Assembly (NCBI GenBank): GCA_027064085.1
Contig: JAMOQH010000185.1
Span: 1-26,950 of the forward strand
DNA from: a bacterium
GTDB lineage: Bacteria > UBP6 > JAFGXH01
Length of the DNA stretch: 26,950 bases
Direction of reading: 5' to 3'
The notes beneath the pieces were generated by a model. It saw only the letters and a program-made list of their open reading frames with translations, did not search any database and had not been told where the DNA came from. The translations under genes and the position numbers were made by a program. This document shows positions 591 to 26,950 of this stretch, one piece after another (within the stretch, counting starts at the first letter, position 1; each line of letters begins with the position of its first letter).

Positions 591-1415
591 ATGTTAAGTA
601 AGTTACTGATATTTTTTGTATTAATTGCAACTGTTGTTTATGCACAGCACTATAAGGCTAAAATTGAAAGACTTGGGCTAAAAAATTGTGAGGAGTGTCA
701 TACCACAGCTAAATGGAATGAATTAAAACATAATATTGAGTTTAAGCATGAAAAAACTGGTTTTGACCTTGGGCCTCAACATAAAAATGTAGATTGTAAT
801 AGTTGTCATACATTTAAAACTAAAATAACAGAAAAAAAAGAGTGTAAAGATTGTCATTTTGACCCACATAAAAAAATTATTAAAACATATGAGAATAAAC
901 CCACCTCCCAAGAGGGGAGTGTTAATAAGTGTGAGGATTGTCATAAGAAAACTTTATGGCACAAAGTTGAGTTTAAACATGAAGAATTCTCAAAAGGTTT
1001 TATTCTTGATGGTGCTCATAAAAATGTAACATGTATTCAGTGTCATAAAACACATAATTATTCTGATGCAAAGGCAAATTGTGTTTCTTGTCATGAAACT
1101 GATTATGTAAAAAGTAGTTGGCCAAACCATAAAAAAGCTCATTTTAATAAAGATTGTGTATCATGTCATACAACTTATAGTTGGAGTCAAGGTCGTTATT
1201 ATGAACATGAACAATATTTTCCTATATTAAACAGTATACATGCTGGATTTAGTTGTAAGAGTTGCCATAATAATCCCGATGATTTTAAAACTATAACCTG
1301 TACTTCCTGTCATGAACACAGTAAAGGTAAGACAGATAAAATACATAAAGATATGTTTGGATATAAATATGATAGTAAATCATGTTATTCTTGTCATCCA
1401 AGAGGTAAAAAATGA
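591..1415 (+). CDS. exported decaheme c-type cytochrome
   Basis: This 274-residue protein has a cleavable signal peptide ('LLIFFVLIATVVYA', cut before Gln-His) and ten CXXCH heme-binding motifs, predicting a periplasmic or cell-surface electron carrier. Three motifs are preceded by the module pattern F/Y-x-H ... G/S-x-H ... CXXCH common in multiheme cytochromes, where the extra histidines probably act as distal ligands. The ATG at 591 was chosen because the signal peptide begins there; an upstream in-frame TTG at 564 would add nine residues of no clear use. It is the first gene of a four-gene operon and overlaps the next by ATGA. There is no lipobox, so any surface attachment would need a partner such as the downstream barrel. 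A 20-nt repeat-derived insert (899-918) is translated as 'KPTSQEG' between hemes 3 and 4. Confidence 0.88.
   Translation: MLSKLLIFFVLIATVVYAQHYKAKIERLGLKNCEECHTTAKWNELKHNIEFKHEKTGFDLGPQHKNVDCNSCHTFKTKITEKKECKDCHFDPHKKIIKTYENKPTSQEGSVNKCEDCHKKTLWHKVEFKHEEFSKGFILDGAHKNVTCIQCHKTHNYSDAKANCVSCHETDYVKSSWPNHKKAHFNKDCVSCHTTYSWSQGRYYEHEQYFPILNSIHAGFSCKSCHNNPDDFKTITCTSCHEHSKGKTDKIHKDMFGYKYDSKSCYSCHPRGKK
899..918 (+). repeat. short (deleted) copy A of the in-frame palindromic element
   Basis: This segment joins the two ends of the element found complete at 5078-5130 (ACCCACC at the left, TCCCAAGAGGGGA at the right) and lacks 33 nt of the middle, exactly 11 codons. It is GC-rich against an AT-rich gene and translates as KPT-SQEG. 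The left part of the terminal hairpin is lost, leaving a 4-bp stem (CCTC/GAGG). Confidence 0.75.
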
Positions 1416-3028: not shown

Positions 3029-3588
3029 AAATTAAAAAACTGAATAAAAAAACAAAATATACAGTATTGTTTTCTTTATTGTTTTCTCTTGTGTTTATAT
3101 TGTGGTTACATTTTGAATTTAATATTATGTATTACACTCATAGTTATGACTTAAGAAGGAGAGAGTGGCGAGCTGTTCATAAATTATTAAGACCATCAGG
3201 AGATCTAGGGCATGGTTTTGGTATAATCGGAGTTATTTTAGTTTATGTAGGTTTATTATATCACATTAGAAAAATTCATAAGAAAAGATTAAAAAAATTT
3301 TTAAAGGTTCAAACATGGCTTTTAATACATATTGCTACTTCTATTGTTGGTGGAATGTTAGTGGTATTTCATGCTTCTGCATTATTTGAAAATTTAAGTG
3401 GAAGTGTAACATTAATATTATTTTTAATTGCTCTTATAAGTGGTTTTTTATTAACTTTATTTAAGTATAAGCCTAAAACCAGAAAAATAATTTATTGGAC
3501 TCATTATTATTCCACTGTATTAATGATGGTTTCATTATCTATTCATGCTTTATATTTTTTATTTATAGGGTTTACATGGATTTTTTAA
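3025..3588 (+). CDS. five-helix membrane protein with diheme cytochrome b histidine pattern
   Basis: This 187-residue protein has five hydrophobic helices (about 11-33, 63-82, 98-120, 126-147 and 159-181). Helix 3 carries His102 and His116, and helix 5 carries His160 and His174. Both pairs are 14 residues apart and the two helices run in the same direction. That matches the bis-histidine arrangement holding two b hemes in cytochrome b of the bc1 complex and many quinol-cytochrome modules. The likely role is an inner-membrane subunit taking electrons from quinol to the periplasmic multiheme cytochromes beside it. The start overlaps the preceding stop (ATGA), and the end overlaps the next start by 13 nt, so translation is probably coupled. 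I do not recognise a named family. Other His residues (52, 63, 80) could also be ligands. Confidence 0.7.
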   Translation: MKIKKLNKKTKYTVLFSLLFSLVFILWLHFEFNIMYYTHSYDLRRREWRAVHKLLRPSGDLGHGFGIIGVILVYVGLLYHIRKIHKKRLKKFLKVQTWLLIHIATSIVGGMLVVFHASALFENLSGSVTLILFLIALISGFLLTLFKYKPKTRKIIYWTHYYSTVLMMVSLSIHALYFLFIGFTWIF

Positions 3589-5594
3589 AAGTAACATTTC
3601 TATTATTGCTGTTTTCAGGTGTCGTATTTGCAGATATTGATGTAAATATATTTTCGCCGGGCAGGCTTTCAAAAGCCCATAAAGATTTGGAAGGGAGTAA
3701 AAATTGTATTCAATGTCATGCCAAAAAAGGAGAATCTTTAATTCAAAAGGATTCGTGTTATAAATGTCACAAAGCAATAAAAAAGCGCGTAAATGCTCAT
3801 AAAGGATATCATAATCAGGCTATAAACATAGAAAAGAAAAATTGTGAAGATTGTCATAAAGAGCATTTTGCTGATCGTTATGACCTTATTACTTGGCCAA
3901 ATAAAGGTGGGTATAAAAAATTTAATCATGATTTAACTGGTTTTAAATTAAATGGTGCTCATAAAAAAATAGATTGTGAAAAATGTCATAAAAAAGAAAA
4001 TATAAAAGATAAATCTTTATTTAAAGATGAAAATGTAAATATTAAAACAACATATCTTGGATTAGATACAAATTGTGTTTCATGTCATCTTAATGATGTT
4101 CATCAAGAACAAATAGATAATAAAAATTGTGCAAATTGTCATGATGAAACAGATTTTAAAAATGCTAGAATTAGTTTTAATCATAACTTAACAAACTTTC
4201 CTTTAAAAGGGCAACATAAAACAGTTAATTGTGAAGCTTGTCATAAACCCTTAAAACAGATTTTTTATGAAGATAAATGGAGATATAAGTTAAAGCATAA
4301 AGGTATTAAATACAAAAGATGTGTTGATTGTCATAAAAATGATGATATTCATGAAAATGTTTTTGGTGATAATTGCGAGCGTTGTCATACAGAAAGTTCT
4401 TTTAATGATATTATTTTTGATAAAAAAGAGCATGCTGTGGATAAATTTCCTTTAACTGGTAAACACCTTAAAGAGGATTGTCGGTCATGTCATACAGATA
4501 AACTGAACATTGTACCTAATGAATCTACATGTGTTTCATGTCATAAAAAAGATGATCCTCATAGGAGAAAATTTGGTGAAACATGCGAAGATTGCCACAA
4601 TACAACTGATTTTAAGGATATTGATGAGAAAAGTTTTAATCATAATTTAACAGGTTTTAAAATTGAAGGCTATCACAAAAAATTAAACTGTATTGAATGT
4701 CATAGCTTGAAAGGTGATTATAAAAAGAAATATCTTACATACAATAAAGATAATAGTTGTATCAAATGTCATACTTCTGACAATCCTCATAAAGATGAAT
4801 TTAAAGATGATGATTGTTCAAAATGTCATAATCAGGATAGATTTATCCCTTCTGAATATAGTGTTGAAGAGCATAATAAAACAGATTTTAAACTTGATGG
4901 TAGCCATGAAGTTGTTTCATGTAATCAGTGTCATAAACCTTATCACACAGATAAGAGTAATGGAGCAAATAAAGATGGTATAGTTCTTACTTTTCATACA
5001 GAAGAAAAAGATTGTGTTGATTGTCATAAGAATCCACATATAAAACAATTTGAGAATTATGTTATAGAGGGGAATAAACCCACCCCCCAAAGTCTAAGCA
5101 TCTCGACTTCGTACCCCTCCCAAGAGGGGAATAATAAGGTTAATTGTGAAAAATGCCATACAACTGAAAGCTTTCATAAAACTATCTTTGACCACAATAA
5201 AGATACTGATTTTAAATTAATAAATTCTCACAAAGATGTTACATGTGAAAGATGTCATGAATATAAAAAAGATAAAAATCATGAATTTGGAGGATATTTT
5301 TTATATACTCAAAATAAAAATAAAGATTGTTCTTATTGTCATACGGATATTCATTACGGACAGTTTAACGATAAAAAATGTTCTGATTGTCATACTGATG
5401 TAAAATGGGAAGATTTATCTCTTTTTGAGCATAATAGAGATACAAAATTTAAAATTGACGGAGCTCATGAAAAACTTGAGTGTGAGGATTGTCATAAAAC
5501 TATTAAAATTAAAGAAAAAGATGTAATAAATTATAAAATAAAAAAATATTCTTGCATTGATTGTCATGATACTTATCATAAAGATGGAAATTAA
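3576..5594 (+). CDS. large periplasmic 23-heme c-type cytochrome
   Basis: The 672-residue protein starts with a signal peptide ('FLKVTFLLLLFSGVVFA') and contains 23 CXXCH motifs. After three N-terminal motifs it consists of seven repeats of one module: F-x-H, then T-x-F-x-L-x-G-x-H, then CXXCH, followed by two more CXXCH per repeat ('DxH...F' between them); the last repeat has only one extra motif. The heme count is therefore 3 + 6x3 + 2. Such modular multiheme chains act as molecular wires or electron stores. The ATG at 3576 was preferred because the signal peptide begins there, although it lies inside the previous gene; an upstream in-frame start at 3495 would place 27 unrelated residues before it. 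An inserted palindromic element (5078-5130) lengthens the loop between hemes 17 and 18. Confidence 0.88.
   Translation: MDFLKVTFLLLLFSGVVFADIDVNIFSPGRLSKAHKDLEGSKNCIQCHAKKGESLIQKDSCYKCHKAIKKRVNAHKGYHNQAINIEKKNCEDCHKEHFADRYDLITWPNKGGYKKFNHDLTGFKLNGAHKKIDCEKCHKKENIKDKSLFKDENVNIKTTYLGLDTNCVSCHLNDVHQEQIDNKNCANCHDETDFKNARISFNHNLTNFPLKGQHKTVNCEACHKPLKQIFYEDKWRYKLKHKGIKYKRCVDCHKNDDIHENVFGDNCERCHTESSFNDIIFDKKEHAVDKFPLTGKHLKEDCRSCHTDKLNIVPNESTCVSCHKKDDPHRRKFGETCEDCHNTTDFKDIDEKSFNHNLTGFKIEGYHKKLNCIECHSLKGDYKKKYLTYNKDNSCIKCHTSDNPHKDEFKDDDCSKCHNQDRFIPSEYSVEEHNKTDFKLDGSHEVVSCNQCHKPYHTDKSNGANKDGIVLTFHTEEKDCVDCHKNPHIKQFENYVIEGNKPTPQSLSISTSYPSQEGNNKVNCEKCHTTESFHKTIFDHNKDTDFKLINSHKDVTCERCHEYKKDKNHEFGGYFLYTQNKNKDCSYCHTDIHYGQFNDKKCSDCHTDVKWEDLSLFEHNRDTKFKIDGAHEKLECEDCHKTIKIKEKDVINYKIKKYSCIDCHDTYHKDGN
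5078..5130 (+). repeat. copy B of the in-frame palindromic element (two hairpins)
   Basis: This 53-nt, GC-rich segment begins ACCCACC and ends TCCCAAGAGGGGA. It holds two hairpins: AAGTC (5090-5094) with GACTT (5105-5109), and CCCCTC (5114-5119) with GAGGGG (5124-5129) around a CCAA loop. It is read in frame as 'KPTPQSLSISTSYPSQEG'. The 12-mer AGAGGGGAATAA occurs at 5066-5077 and again at 5123-5134, 57 nt (19 codons) apart, which may mark the duplicated boundary of the insertion. Confidence 0.85.
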
Positions 5595-6769: not shown

Positions 6770-7849
6770 TTAATATAGTTTTTTTAATTCATTTATAATC
6801 AGGTCATCATCATCTGAAATTATTTCTTTTATTATATTTTTATTTTTGTTAATTGAGTGGTTGTATAATTTATCATAATAGTTGATTAAAAGCTCTCTTA
6901 TTACTGCTTCGTCTTCGTGATTTTCAAGCATTTTTGATATTTGCTTGTATCTTTCTCCACCTAGTTTTTTAGTAATTCTATCTAAGGCATTTTTAAACTC
7001 AATATCATTTATATCATAATCCTCAAGTATTTTCCTTATACGGTAGTTTTCACTTCGTTTTATTATTACCATATCGGAATTAGTCATTTTTTCATAAAAA
7101 TTTTTATTTAAATTTACCCAACCTATTCTTTTACTTTCACCCTCTAGAAATATTGTTTTACTTCCTTTTAATTTAATTAATGATGTTGCTAACCTATTTT
7201 CAAATTGTTGTTGACTTGTTCTTACTCCATTATATGGAATTGAGCCAAAAGCACTTCCCATGTGTTTTGCTATTCCTTCTAAATCTATAATAGGTAAATT
7301 TTGTTTTTGCATTTTGTGTAAAACAGTAGTTTTTCCACTTCCTGTATAACCATTTAATATTATAAATTTTATATTAGGAATTTTTCTTTCTATGTGGTCT
7401 AAAACAATATTTCTATATGTTTTGTAGCCTCCGATAAGCCTTTTACTTTCTATTTTTAAACTACTCATAAAGGAATGAACTGCACCTGAACGCATTCCTC
7501 CACGAGCACAATAAATTATTATATCTTTTTGATTACTCCCCTCTTGGGAGGGGTTCGAAGCTAGATGCTTAGCTTCAGGGGGTGGGTAATTTCCTTCATT
7601 TCTTCTTTGAATTTTTAAAAGGGACTCATAAATATTTACAAAATTAGGTCCAGCTAATTCAAGAGCTTTTTTTATAGCTTTTTCTTGGCCTTGTTTCTTG
7701 TAAACTGTGCCAACTATTGCTCTTTGTTCATTATCTAAAAGAGGAATATTAATTGCATCAACTATATGACCTTTTTCAAATTCAGCAGGAGACCTAGTAT
7801 CTATAAAAATTGCTTTATTTAAATCAATATCTTCAAATTTTATATCCAA
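6770..7849 (-). CDS. mnmH: tRNA 2-selenouridine synthase (MnmH/SelU)
   Basis: This 359-residue enzyme replaces sulfur by selenium in 2-thiouridine at the wobble position of certain tRNAs, using selenophosphate. An N-terminal rhodanese domain begins 'FIDTRSPAEFEKGHI' and holds the catalytic cysteine in 'IIIYCARGGMRSG' (Cys114). A P-loop domain follows with 'GYTGSGKT' (167-174). The start is TTG at 7849, supported by AGGAG five bases upstream. It sits between a NUDIX gene and yedF on one strand, probably one transcript. Residues about 88-105 ('YPPPEAKHLASNPSQEG') come from an inserted palindromic repeat placed just before the catalytic-cysteine strand; the reading frame and all motifs remain intact. 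SelD, needed for selenophosphate, is not in this window. Confidence 0.93.
   Translation of the reverse strand: MDIKFEDIDLNKAIFIDTRSPAEFEKGHIVDAINIPLLDNEQRAIVGTVYKKQGQEKAIKKALELAGPNFVNIYESLLKIQRRNEGNYPPPEAKHLASNPSQEGSNQKDIIIYCARGGMRSGAVHSFMSSLKIESKRLIGGYKTYRNIVLDHIERKIPNIKFIILNGYTGSGKTTVLHKMQKQNLPIIDLEGIAKHMGSAFGSIPYNGVRTSQQQFENRLATSLIKLKGSKTIFLEGESKRIGWVNLNKNFYEKMTNSDMVIIKRSENYRIRKILEDYDINDIEFKNALDRITKKLGGERYKQISKMLENHEDEAVIRELLINYYDKLYNHSINKNKNIIKEIISDDDDLIINELKKLY
7537..7587 (-). repeat. copy C of the in-frame palindromic element, inside selU
   Basis: Read on the gene strand, this 51-nt segment begins ACCCACCCCC and ends TCCCAAGAGGGGA, like the copy at 5078-5130. It again has two hairpins: GAAGC/GCTTC and CCCCTC/GAGGGG. 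It is 2 nt shorter than copy B because one base is missing from each arm of the first stem. The left half is therefore read in a different frame from copy B and the right half in the same frame; both frames are open. Confidence 0.85.
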
Positions 7850-19086: not shown

Positions 19087-19746
19087 ATGCGATGGAGTAA
19101 ACGAAAATCGATAAGATTAGATGAATATGATTATTCACAAAATGGACATTATTTTATAACAATTAACATATATCAAAACGAATGTATATTAGGTAAGATT
19201 AAAAATAAAAAAATAATATTAAATGATGCCGGAAGAATAATAAGAGATGAATTGTTAAAAACCGAAATAATAAGAAATGATATTTTTATAAACGAATATG
19301 TAATAATGCCAAATCACATTCATTTCATAATGGAAATCCGTAGGGGCGAGGTGGTGACTCGCCCTAAATCAGAAAAATCAGAAAAATCAGATAAATTAGA
19401 TAAATTAGATAAATTAGATAAATTAGATAAATTAGATAAATTAGAAAAATCAGAAAAATTTGATAAATCAGATAAATTAGATAAATTAGATAAATCAGAT
19501 AAATTAGATAAATTTGATAAATTAGATAAATTAGATAAAAAGGGTTTGTCACCGCCAAACCCGTACGAATTGGGATTTGTTGTAGGGCAGATTAAATCAA
19601 TTTCAGCCAAGAAAATTAGAAAGGTTTTAGAGAGAAAGAAGATATGGCATAGAAATTATTATGAGCATATTATTAGGAATAAATATGATTATAATAGAAT
19701 TGTTAATTATATTATAAATAATCCTAAGAATTGGAAGAAGAATTAA
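19087..19746 (+). CDS. REP-associated tyrosine transposase (RAYT, Y1/HUH family) with expanded repeat linker
   Basis: The 219-residue protein has the RAYT opening 'RKSIRLDEYDYSQNGHYFITI', the HUH metal-binding motif in 'VIMPNHIHFIM' (His77-Ile-His79) and the C-terminal block 'WHRNYYEHIIRN' (Tyr191/Tyr192) with a final 'YIINNPKNW'. Such enzymes cut single-stranded REP hairpins and are thought to spread them. Between the HUH motif and the C-terminal part lies an unusual linker: a REP-like hairpin sequence, 19 tandem KLD/KSD/KSE-type tripeptides (residues 94-150), and an inverted second hairpin sequence. The frame stays open because the unit is 9 nt. The start at 19087 has GAGG upstream and matches the family start; an ATG at 19063 adds eight unrelated residues. 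The enzyme may still be active, but the linker could impair it. Confidence 0.85.
   Translation: MRWSKRKSIRLDEYDYSQNGHYFITINIYQNECILGKIKNKKIILNDAGRIIRDELLKTEIIRNDIFINEYVIMPNHIHFIMEIRRGEVVTRPKSEKSEKSDKLDKLDKLDKLDKLDKLEKSEKFDKSDKLDKLDKSDKLDKFDKLDKLDKKGLSPPNPYELGFVVGQIKSISAKKIRKVLERKKIWHRNYYEHIIRNKYDYNRIVNYIINNPKNWKKN
19339..19365 (+). repeat. REP-like hairpin 1 inside the transposase gene
   Basis: This 27-nt unit begins CGTAG and has a 7-bp stem, GGGCGAG (19344-19350) with CTCGCCC (19358-19364), around GTGGTGA. A GTAG-type head next to a GC-rich hairpin is the classic REP form recognised by RAYTs. It encodes part of 'RRGEVVTRP'. Confidence 0.75.
19366..19536 (+). repeat. 9-nt minisatellite, 19 copies, in coding sequence
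   Basis: There are nineteen consecutive units of the type AAATTAGAT with scattered variants (TCA for TTA, GAA for GAT, TTT for TTA). The unit is a multiple of three, so copy-number change keeps the transposase frame. It lies exactly between the two REP-like hairpins and encodes Lys-Leu/Ser/Phe-Asp/Glu repeats. Confidence 0.95.
19541..19567 (-). repeat. REP-like hairpin 2 (inverted) inside the transposase gene
   Basis: Read on the minus strand this 27-nt unit aligns with the unit at 19339-19365 without gaps: CGTA head, stem GGGTTTG/CAAACCC and loop GCGGTGA. Three stem base pairs differ (CGA/TCG in unit 1, TTT/AAA here), each change being compensated on the other arm. Confidence 0.75.
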
Positions 19747-25315: not shown

Positions 25316-26950
25316 ATGAAATACATTTATTTTTTACTAATAATATTATTAGCTACAGCTTGTTCAAATACAACTAGCTCAAATAATAGTTGTGAAGATG
25401 ATAAAGCTTGTAATAAATCACAAGGTCTTCAATGTTCTGATAATATAATCTATAGTTGTGATTATGATAAGCAGGGTTGTTTGGTAAAAACTCCATTTGA
25501 AGATTGCTCAGCAATTGGTAAAAAATGTGAAACAGGAGCTATAGAGTGTACTGATAAAGTTGATTGTTCTGATGATTGCAATATGATTGGAGCAAGTTGT
25601 AAAGATACTAATACTATTATGTTTTGTGGTCAATTTGATGATGATGCTTGTAATGAGTATAGTGAAGAAACAATTAAATGTGGCCAAGCAGAAGAATGCA
25701 AAAACGGAGAATGTGTTTTAAAACAAAGCTTTTGTGAAACAAATTCAGATTGTGGTGGCGATGCAACTTGTGAATCAAGTGATGAGGGGCCAAGTATCTG
25801 TACTTGCTCAGATGGTTATACTTATAACTCTGTAACAAAAACTTGTGATGATATAAATGAATGTGAAATTGATAATGGTGGTTGTGAGCAAATTTGTGCA
25901 AATAACGATGGTGGATTTGCTTGTAGTTGTGGAGATGGCTATAGTTTAACTGGTGATAATAAAACTTGTAGTGATATTAATGAATGTGAACAAGAGATTG
26001 ATGATTGTGATATAAATGCTACATGTAAGAATTTAGAAGGCAATGAAGGTAAATTTGAATGTATTTGTAATGAGGGCTGGGCTGGAGATGGAGTAACTTG
26101 TACAGATATAGATGATTGTGAATCTAATCCATGTGTTCATGCTACGGCATGTGCAGATACTGGAGTTAATTCTTATACTTGTACTTGTGAAAGTGGTTGG
26201 CAAGGAATTAATTGTGATGAAGATATAAATGATTGTGCCCCTAATCCCTGTGTTCATGCTACTAGTTGCACTGATACAGGAACTAACTCTTACAGTTGTG
26301 CTTGTGAAAGTGGCTGGCAAGGAACTAATTGTGATGAAGACATAAATGATTGTGTCCCTAATCCATGTGTTCATGCTACCATCTGCACTGATACTGGAAA
26401 TAATTCTTATAGCTGTACCTGTGAAAGTGGTTGGCAAGGAACTAACTGTGATGAAGATGTAAATGATTGTGCCCCTAATCCATGTGCCCATGGTACCTGT
26501 ACTGATACAGGAATTAACTCTTATACTTGTGCTTGTGAAGGTGGTTGGCAAGGAATCAATTGTGATGAAGATATAAATGAATGTGCTAATGCTGGATTAA
26601 ATAATTGTCATGATGATGCAATTTGTACTAATACCCCTGGTAGTTTTAATTGTATTTGTAAAGATGGATATGCAGGAAATGGTATAACCTCATGTATAGA
26701 TGTAGATGAATGTGTAAACAATGATGATAATTGTAATGCTAATGCTACTTGTTATAATACTCCTGGTAGTTTTACTTGTGCTTGTAATGATGGTTATCAT
26801 GGAGGAGCTGATGATGGTATTGAGTGCTTGGAAGTATGTGGTGATGGTATTAATACTGAATCTGAAGAATGTGATGATGGTAATAATGATTCTGGAGATG
26901 GTTGTAGTGATACCTGTATTGTTGAATACTGCGGTGATGGAATTGTAAAT
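25316..26950 (+). CDS. lipoprotein with EGF-like modules and DUF4215/Myxo-disulfide repeat (3' end outside window)
   Basis: The frame is open from ATG 25316 to the window end (545 codons, no stop). The signal peptide ends 'LLATAC', a lipobox. A Cys-rich spacer follows, then EGF-like domains of the calcium-binding kind (D-I/V-N-D/E-C start, later D-T-G-x-N-S-Y), four of which are nearly identical 38-39-residue tandem copies (26108-26572). Next come two EGF modules with 'NTPGSFNC' and 'NTPGSFTC', and a DUF4215-type repeat ('[20 protein letters not shown]', then 'GDGCSDTC'), whose second copy begins at the edge. Such proteins are surface or secreted adhesion-type molecules in myxobacteria and relatives. 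AAGGAG precedes the start. Large antisense frames here are shadows of the repeats. Confidence 0.85.
26108..26572 (+). repeat. four tandem EGF-module repeats (117, 117, 117, 114 nt)
   Basis: Units begin at 26108, 26225, 26342 and 26459. They share long identical stretches at the DNA level (for example around GAAAGTGG(T/C)TGGCAAGG), pointing to recent duplication by unequal crossing-over. The last unit lacks one codon. Confidence 0.9.

Follow-up and report, generated by a model that had tools for sequence, protein, structure and literature searches.

The REPINs and BIMEs known from Pseudomonas and E. coli lie, as a rule, outside genes, flanking the gene of the RAYT. A similar placement, flanking RAYT genes and typically extragenic, is given for REPs in the part of Di Nocera et al. 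(2013; PMC3733652) considered here, which describes most REPs as intergenic and those associated with RAYT genes as flanking them, not inside. The same part of that work records GTAG REPs and their dimers in frame within repair and housekeeping genes, in genomes that also have RAYTs. REPs within RAYT genes have been described by Quentin et al. (2018; PMC6006769), who report that TnpA_REP subclass 2.4 is unique in having in-frame REPs between the HuH and Y motifs. This subclass is RAYT group 4 (the correspondence to the groups of Bertels 2017 is stated in PMC6006769), and it is marked by the key motifs NH[IFV]H, WQ and YIxNNP and by a median HuH-Y distance of 88 aa (PMC6006769). REPs in the linker of a RAYT gene are already described for subclass 2.4 and are not unusual for this branch. 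Palindromic DNA in protein genes is also known from the Rickettsia palindromic elements (RPE; Ogata 2000), which are presented in the portion of the review used here (PMC2229807) as in-frame elements of 105-146 bp tolerated in conserved protein genes.

Here we describe a RAYT gene within a 26,950-bp stretch of DNA with 26.7% GC (hereafter the window), whose linker holds a pair of REP hairpins of the genome's own, mostly genic, REP family. We also compare this linker with those of related RAYTs from many phyla.

The RAYT gene and its disordered linker

An earlier note on this DNA, made from the sequence alone, had taken the host gene for a RAYT, and profile and fold searches bear this out. The ORF matches the NCBIfam family NF047646 REP_Tyr_transpos (E=4.7e-19) and Pfam Y1_Tnp (PF01797, E=1.7e-5), and its closest PDB fold is 4ER8, the E. 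coli RAYT-REP complex (E=1.4e-6), which is also the sole match when a profile of related RAYTs is compared with PDB sequences. The NF047646 score falls below the family cut-off because the linker insert between HuH and Y splits the match in two. A second in-frame ATG lies at 19087, downstream of the start listed in Table 1. Across 50 aligned RAYTs, M, P and both H of the HuH motif are invariant, as is N220 of the Y motif, in which Y216, I217 and P221 are conserved at 90% or more. Judged by these sequence motifs, HuH and Y---NP, the gene is classed as a RAYT (TnpA_REP), that is, a class 2 Y1 HuH transposase.

AlphaFold, run with 50 relatives, models most core blocks of the protein at pLDDT above 90. 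Linker residues 101-160 reach pLDDT of about 53-62 and are predicted to be disordered; they are placed between the strand that follows HuH (residues 85-92) and helix C (residues 170-189). The HuH-Y distance is 128 aa.

Table 1. Features of the RAYT gene and its linker in the window (positions are those of the whole stretch).
Feature	Position	Strand	Details
RAYT / TnpA_REP gene, 227 aa	19063..19746	+	ATG 19063; NF047646, PF01797, fold match 4ER8
HuH motif MPNHIH, residues 82-87	19306..19323	+	sequence; conservation in 50 aligned RAYTs
REP hairpin 1, GTAG head, encodes RRGEVVTRP	19339..19365	+	stem 19344-19350 / 19358-19364
9-nt coding microsatellite, consensus TAAATTAGA, 19.4 copies, K-L/S-D/E repeats, between both REPs	19365..19539	+	
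REP hairpin 2, inverted, GTAC head; gene strand encodes KGLSPPNPYE	19541..19567	-	stem 19542-19548 / 19556-19562
Y motif YIINNP, Tyr216 presumed nucleophile, class 2 signature Y---NP	19708..19725	+	sequence; PMC6006769 motif definition

An inverted pair of hairpins in the linker

The linker between HuH and Y contains two in-frame hairpins with 7-bp stems and GTA heads that face outward, and the coding, low-complexity microsatellite between them spans 175 bp. Unit 1 (CGTAG GGGCGAG GTGGTGA CTCGCCC) and unit 2, read on the minus strand (CGTAC GGGTTTG GCGGTGA CAAACCC), form a gapless 27-nt alignment with eight differences: three compensated pairs (CGA/TCG to TTT/AAA), one head base and one loop base. 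Both the alignment of the two units and the concerted change of three stem pairs had been proposed in the earlier note and are confirmed, as is its description of a BIME-like inverted pair within the RAYT coding sequence between HuH and Y, the outward-facing heads being those of a BIME or REPIN. Its claim of a shared CGTA head with near-identical loops stands with a single loop base changed, and the GTAG form of the head applies to hairpin 1 and not to hairpin 2, which reads GTAC.

Perfect 7-bp stems with at least four GC occur three times in the whole window, and two of these are the linker hairpins. First-order Markov simulations predict 0.84 such hairpins per window, and 0.08 with a GTA head against the two seen; two GTA-headed hairpins were reached in one of 200 simulations. 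As single-stranded DNA, hairpin 1 folds at -8.3 kcal/mol (z -4.1) and hairpin 2 at -6.5 kcal/mol (z -2.4), and as RNA they fold at -15.3 and -9.1 kcal/mol, respectively. No match to a known structured RNA was found in Rfam at the gathering score.

A genome-specific REP family

The hairpins have further copies in this genome, contrary to the lack of other copies that the earlier note had named as refuting its reading. With the loop and three G-C pairs fixed, a pattern search that allows up to three mismatches yields 13 sites, and no site in either of two genomes from the same family or in the reversed control. A consensus pattern gives 102 matches (53+49, where a perfect palindrome may count on both strands), and none in the genomes of five relatives or in the reversed control. 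In an alignment of 12 copies, five of the seven stem pairs are changed on both sides, and the covariation score is 0.394, compared with 0.162 +/- 0.039 after shuffling. The covariance model R1, built from aligned copies, places at least 94 sites at E<=1 and at least 76 below 0.01 among the 150 of 374 candidates scored in this genome, counts in which a perfect palindrome may again appear on both strands and copies may be missing, several REP arrays being located at contig ends where the assembly breaks. The same model finds no site in four relatives and three weak ones in the fifth. The fourth head base varies within the family (GTAA, GTAG, GTAC and GTAT) while GTA is kept. The hairpins thus belong to a genome-specific REP family with many dispersed copies and compensated stems. 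A strict division of the REPs into subfamilies, one for each RAYT, was dropped, as R1 finds all three linker REP types, which are variations on a single theme.

REP copies inside ordinary genes

To place the dispersed copies, the DNA surrounding 58 REP sites was read and ORFs of at least 150 aa were counted. Forty-nine of the 58 classified sites fall inside such ORFs, 32 ORFs in all, so the family lacks the predominantly extragenic placement of GTAG REPs. Within these ORFs, 48 of 53 occurrences lie on the coding strand and in one frame (xGT ARG GAY...), giving peptides such as SKDEALTRP and SRDESLTHP with the consensus (S/R)(K/R)D(E/K)(A/S)xT(R/H)P. Hairpin 1 of the window RAYT (RRGEVVTRP) has the same strand and frame as these genic copies. 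Counted by ORF, 29 of 32 carry the REP in that one strand and frame against 26% expected if all open strands and frames were equally likely (P about 2e-14), with the reservation that contig ends may have split one gene into a few of these ORFs, so that the 32 are not fully independent. Stop codons alone were considered as the cause of the frame lock and rejected, since open frames predict about 26%.

The REP lies between Pfam domains in TilS (L211), DnaX (L217), CheA (L222) and an ABC-F ATPase, and inside the domain of a metallophosphoesterase. PurM (L001, 1880-2170) is host to a related family of elements that have internal tandem repeats, REP-bounded and 80-odd aa long, and a GTAGGGGCGA hairpin is inserted separately near its N terminus. 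These elements are insertions, because the PurM proteins of four other genomes are without all of them.

Two further genic sites show structures of their own. At the first (L177, around 1501), about seven coding repeats in tandem (ATHPATSK-like) come after a REP hairpin; the right arm of the hairpin is part of the repeat unit, and the repeats appear to grow from the REP. The second is a Maf gene (L180, around 1480-1540), where the REP is bordered by an inverted target copy, ttacaatattggg ... cccaatattgtaa, possibly a fold-back footprint of insertion.

We tentatively suggest, as a possibility that falls short of being probable, that the REP family has turned into a coding element. It would have spread into genes by, or at least alongside, group-4 RAYTs, and would be kept almost exclusively in one frame of the sense strand, where it encodes a short, hydrophilic stretch of protein ((S/R)(K/R)D(E/K)(A/S)xT(R/H)P). 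Tandem expansions bounded by REPs would go with it, and the RAYT linker would hold its cis-linked copy. If true, this would tie the coding-palindrome phenomenon of the RPE type to a transposase.

Linker hairpins in related RAYTs

Two further RAYTs of this genome (L042 and L043) have REP-containing repeat tracts in their HuH-Y linkers. A fourth RAYT, a paralogue, has a short linker without a REP, which indicates that an intact ORF does not require the insert.

The earlier note had pointed to the linkers of other RAYT genes as a place to look for REPs, and headed hairpins are found there across phyla. Among 96 related RAYTs from many phyla, 69 (72%) carry a GTAG/CTAC-footed linker hairpin of 7 bp or more, a feature seen in 0.33% of codon-shuffled linkers; as the sample was drawn with a profile mostly from long-linker members, the 72% is valid for this branch and not for all RAYTs. 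The same criterion detects a hairpin in three of 94 segments of equal length before HuH and in none of 96 segments from the Y block on, within-gene controls that are unaffected by the long-linker sampling. The other 27 of the 96 sampled RAYTs are without a headed linker hairpin by the criteria used, and a stricter criterion, which misses long stems that include the GTAG foot, gave 53 of 96. Double-foot hairpins number 29, and in the 19 linkers with two single-foot hairpins the heads face outward in 15 and inward in two. As expected for coding sequence, none of the GTAG feet stands in the TAG-reading frame (61 of 61 are in other frames).

The core of the linker hairpin also occurs within 3 kb of its own RAYT in 33 of 55 loci, versus 28 of 825 when compared against other loci. 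For two other linker REP types, pattern tests across 44 and 45 genomes found that copies of the linker hairpin are often few in the whole genome, with many of these at the RAYT itself, and that genomes without a given linker type can have more matches. These tests leave the strict rule that the linker REP is the genome's amplified REP unsupported, and the few genome-wide copies of the two types indicate that linker REPs and dispersed REPs are not always matched.

We further note that tandem coding repeats, each different in sequence, lie within the RAYT linkers of L042, L043, L044 and L057, and that expansion between or of linker REPs recurs across RAYTs.

Origin and maintenance of the linker REPs

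We consider it probable that the window gene is a group-4 RAYT (TnpA_REP subclass 2.4, an assignment based on motifs and linker) whose disordered HuH-Y linker holds an in-frame, heads-outward REP pair of the genome's own family. This pair, a REPIN or BIME unit, is split by an expanded coding microsatellite, and as a tolerated, self-inserted REPIN it would keep a substrate copy in cis. If the enzyme acts as its E. coli counterpart does, it would bind GTA-headed single-stranded hairpins by structure and head, and cut and join them. REP copies may then land in, or be copied into, the tolerant linker of the RAYT itself, where they would be kept when in frame and when the catalytic core is undisturbed. 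Through such a linker REP, the enzyme gene would take a physically linked copy of the substrate along when it is transferred. The stems would subsequently drift with pairing preserved, while the tract between the hairpins would grow by replication slippage in multiples of three.

The in-frame copies in TilS, DnaX, CheA, the ABC-F ATPase and other proteins, usually between domains, and the PurM homologues of four genomes without related-family inserts are also consistent with passive landing. In that case coding palindromes resembling those of Rickettsia would insert wherever they are tolerable in frame, the RAYT linker would be one more permissive disordered site, and the RAYT would have no special relation to them. 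We regard this as unlikely, because headed hairpins with different stems concentrate in the linker of one enzyme family across phyla (69 of 96) and match the flanks of their own genes far beyond those of other loci. Passive landing in permissive loops accounts for the copies in ordinary genes, yet it leaves the clustering in RAYT linkers across phyla unexplained.

Alternatively, the linker REPs could be kept since the RAYT, by binding its own mRNA or its own gene (single-stranded during replication or transcription), limits its own production. The stable folding of both hairpins as RNA and the recurrence of a headed hairpin in the equivalent gene segment of many phyla agree with such autoregulation, which the earlier note had raised. 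It nevertheless appears distinctly unlikely, given the REP-free paralogue and the presence of the same family in about 30 other ORFs, whose REPs cannot be explained by self-regulation. Indeed, as the family lies in frame in about 30 unrelated ORFs, an intragenic position alone is no evidence that a REP regulates the gene around it. An origin as chance inverted repeats or low-complexity coding sequence, which the low complexity of the interval between the hairpins might suggest, is ruled out for practical purposes by the Markov expectation (0.08 headed hairpins against two), by the 102 matches to the family, compared with zero in the reversed control, and by the stem covariation.

Other repeats in the window

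The window contains a second composite palindromic element, about AAGTCTAAGCATCTCGACTTCG[T/A]ACCCCTCCCAAGAGGGG, at 5078-5130 (+) and 7531-7591 (-), in frame in a multihaem cytochrome ORF (3495-5594) and in a SelU-like ORF (6770-7849). A shorter relative lies at about 895-917 (+) in the ORF 564-1415. The exact core of this element, CCCTCCCAAGAGGG, occurs four times in the genome and not at all in the reversed control. A coding tandem repeat with a 117-bp unit and 4.2 copies is found at 26104-26586.

Comparison with known systems

The window RAYT resembles subclass 2.4 (group 4) in its HuH/Y1 core, its NHIH and YIINNP motifs and its long variable linker between beta3 and alphaC, and also in having in-frame REPs between HuH and Y whose long stems have three G-C pairs at the bottom. 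It differs in having WH where the subclass has WQ in the alignment, in the coding microsatellite that sets its REPs 175 bp apart, and in the GTAC head of the second REP. The REP family of this genome is further unlike that of the subclass in lying mostly within genes and in being locked to a single strand and frame. A literature search, which was not exhaustive, found no earlier report of the frame lock or of the matching of linkers to flanks. The features that we have not found described are the quantified linker enrichment with its own-flank match, the REP pair split by a microsatellite, and a strand- and frame-locked family of genic REPs that are also found in the RAYT linkers of their genome. 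The report of REPs inside subclass 2.4 genes, formerly qualitative, now has numbers (69/96; 33/55 vs 28/825).

The comparison with coding palindromes bears on how such elements enter genes, how they survive there and what moves them. Unlike the REPs in the part of Di Nocera et al. (PMC3733652) considered here, 49 of the 58 classified sites of this family fall within ORFs of 150 aa or more, and nearly all of them share one frame. The RPEs are similar in being palindromic elements read in frame in protein genes (PMC2229807), but the units described here are 25-27 bp long, GTA-headed and also present in the RAYT genes of the genome, while the portion of that review used here names no dedicated transposase. 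PARCEL coding palindromes (PMC2996958) share the palindromic DNA in coding tandem arrays and differ in being 25-aa amphipathic repeats of the DUF285 type in membrane proteins, unrelated in sequence. This genome lets insertion, frame selection and tandem growth be read from sequence, and its three RAYT genes with in-frame linker REPs, together with a mostly genic family, provide a concrete candidate enzyme-substrate pair. In the arrangement of two inverted REPs with heads outward, the linker pair is like the REPINs and BIMEs of Pseudomonas and E. coli.
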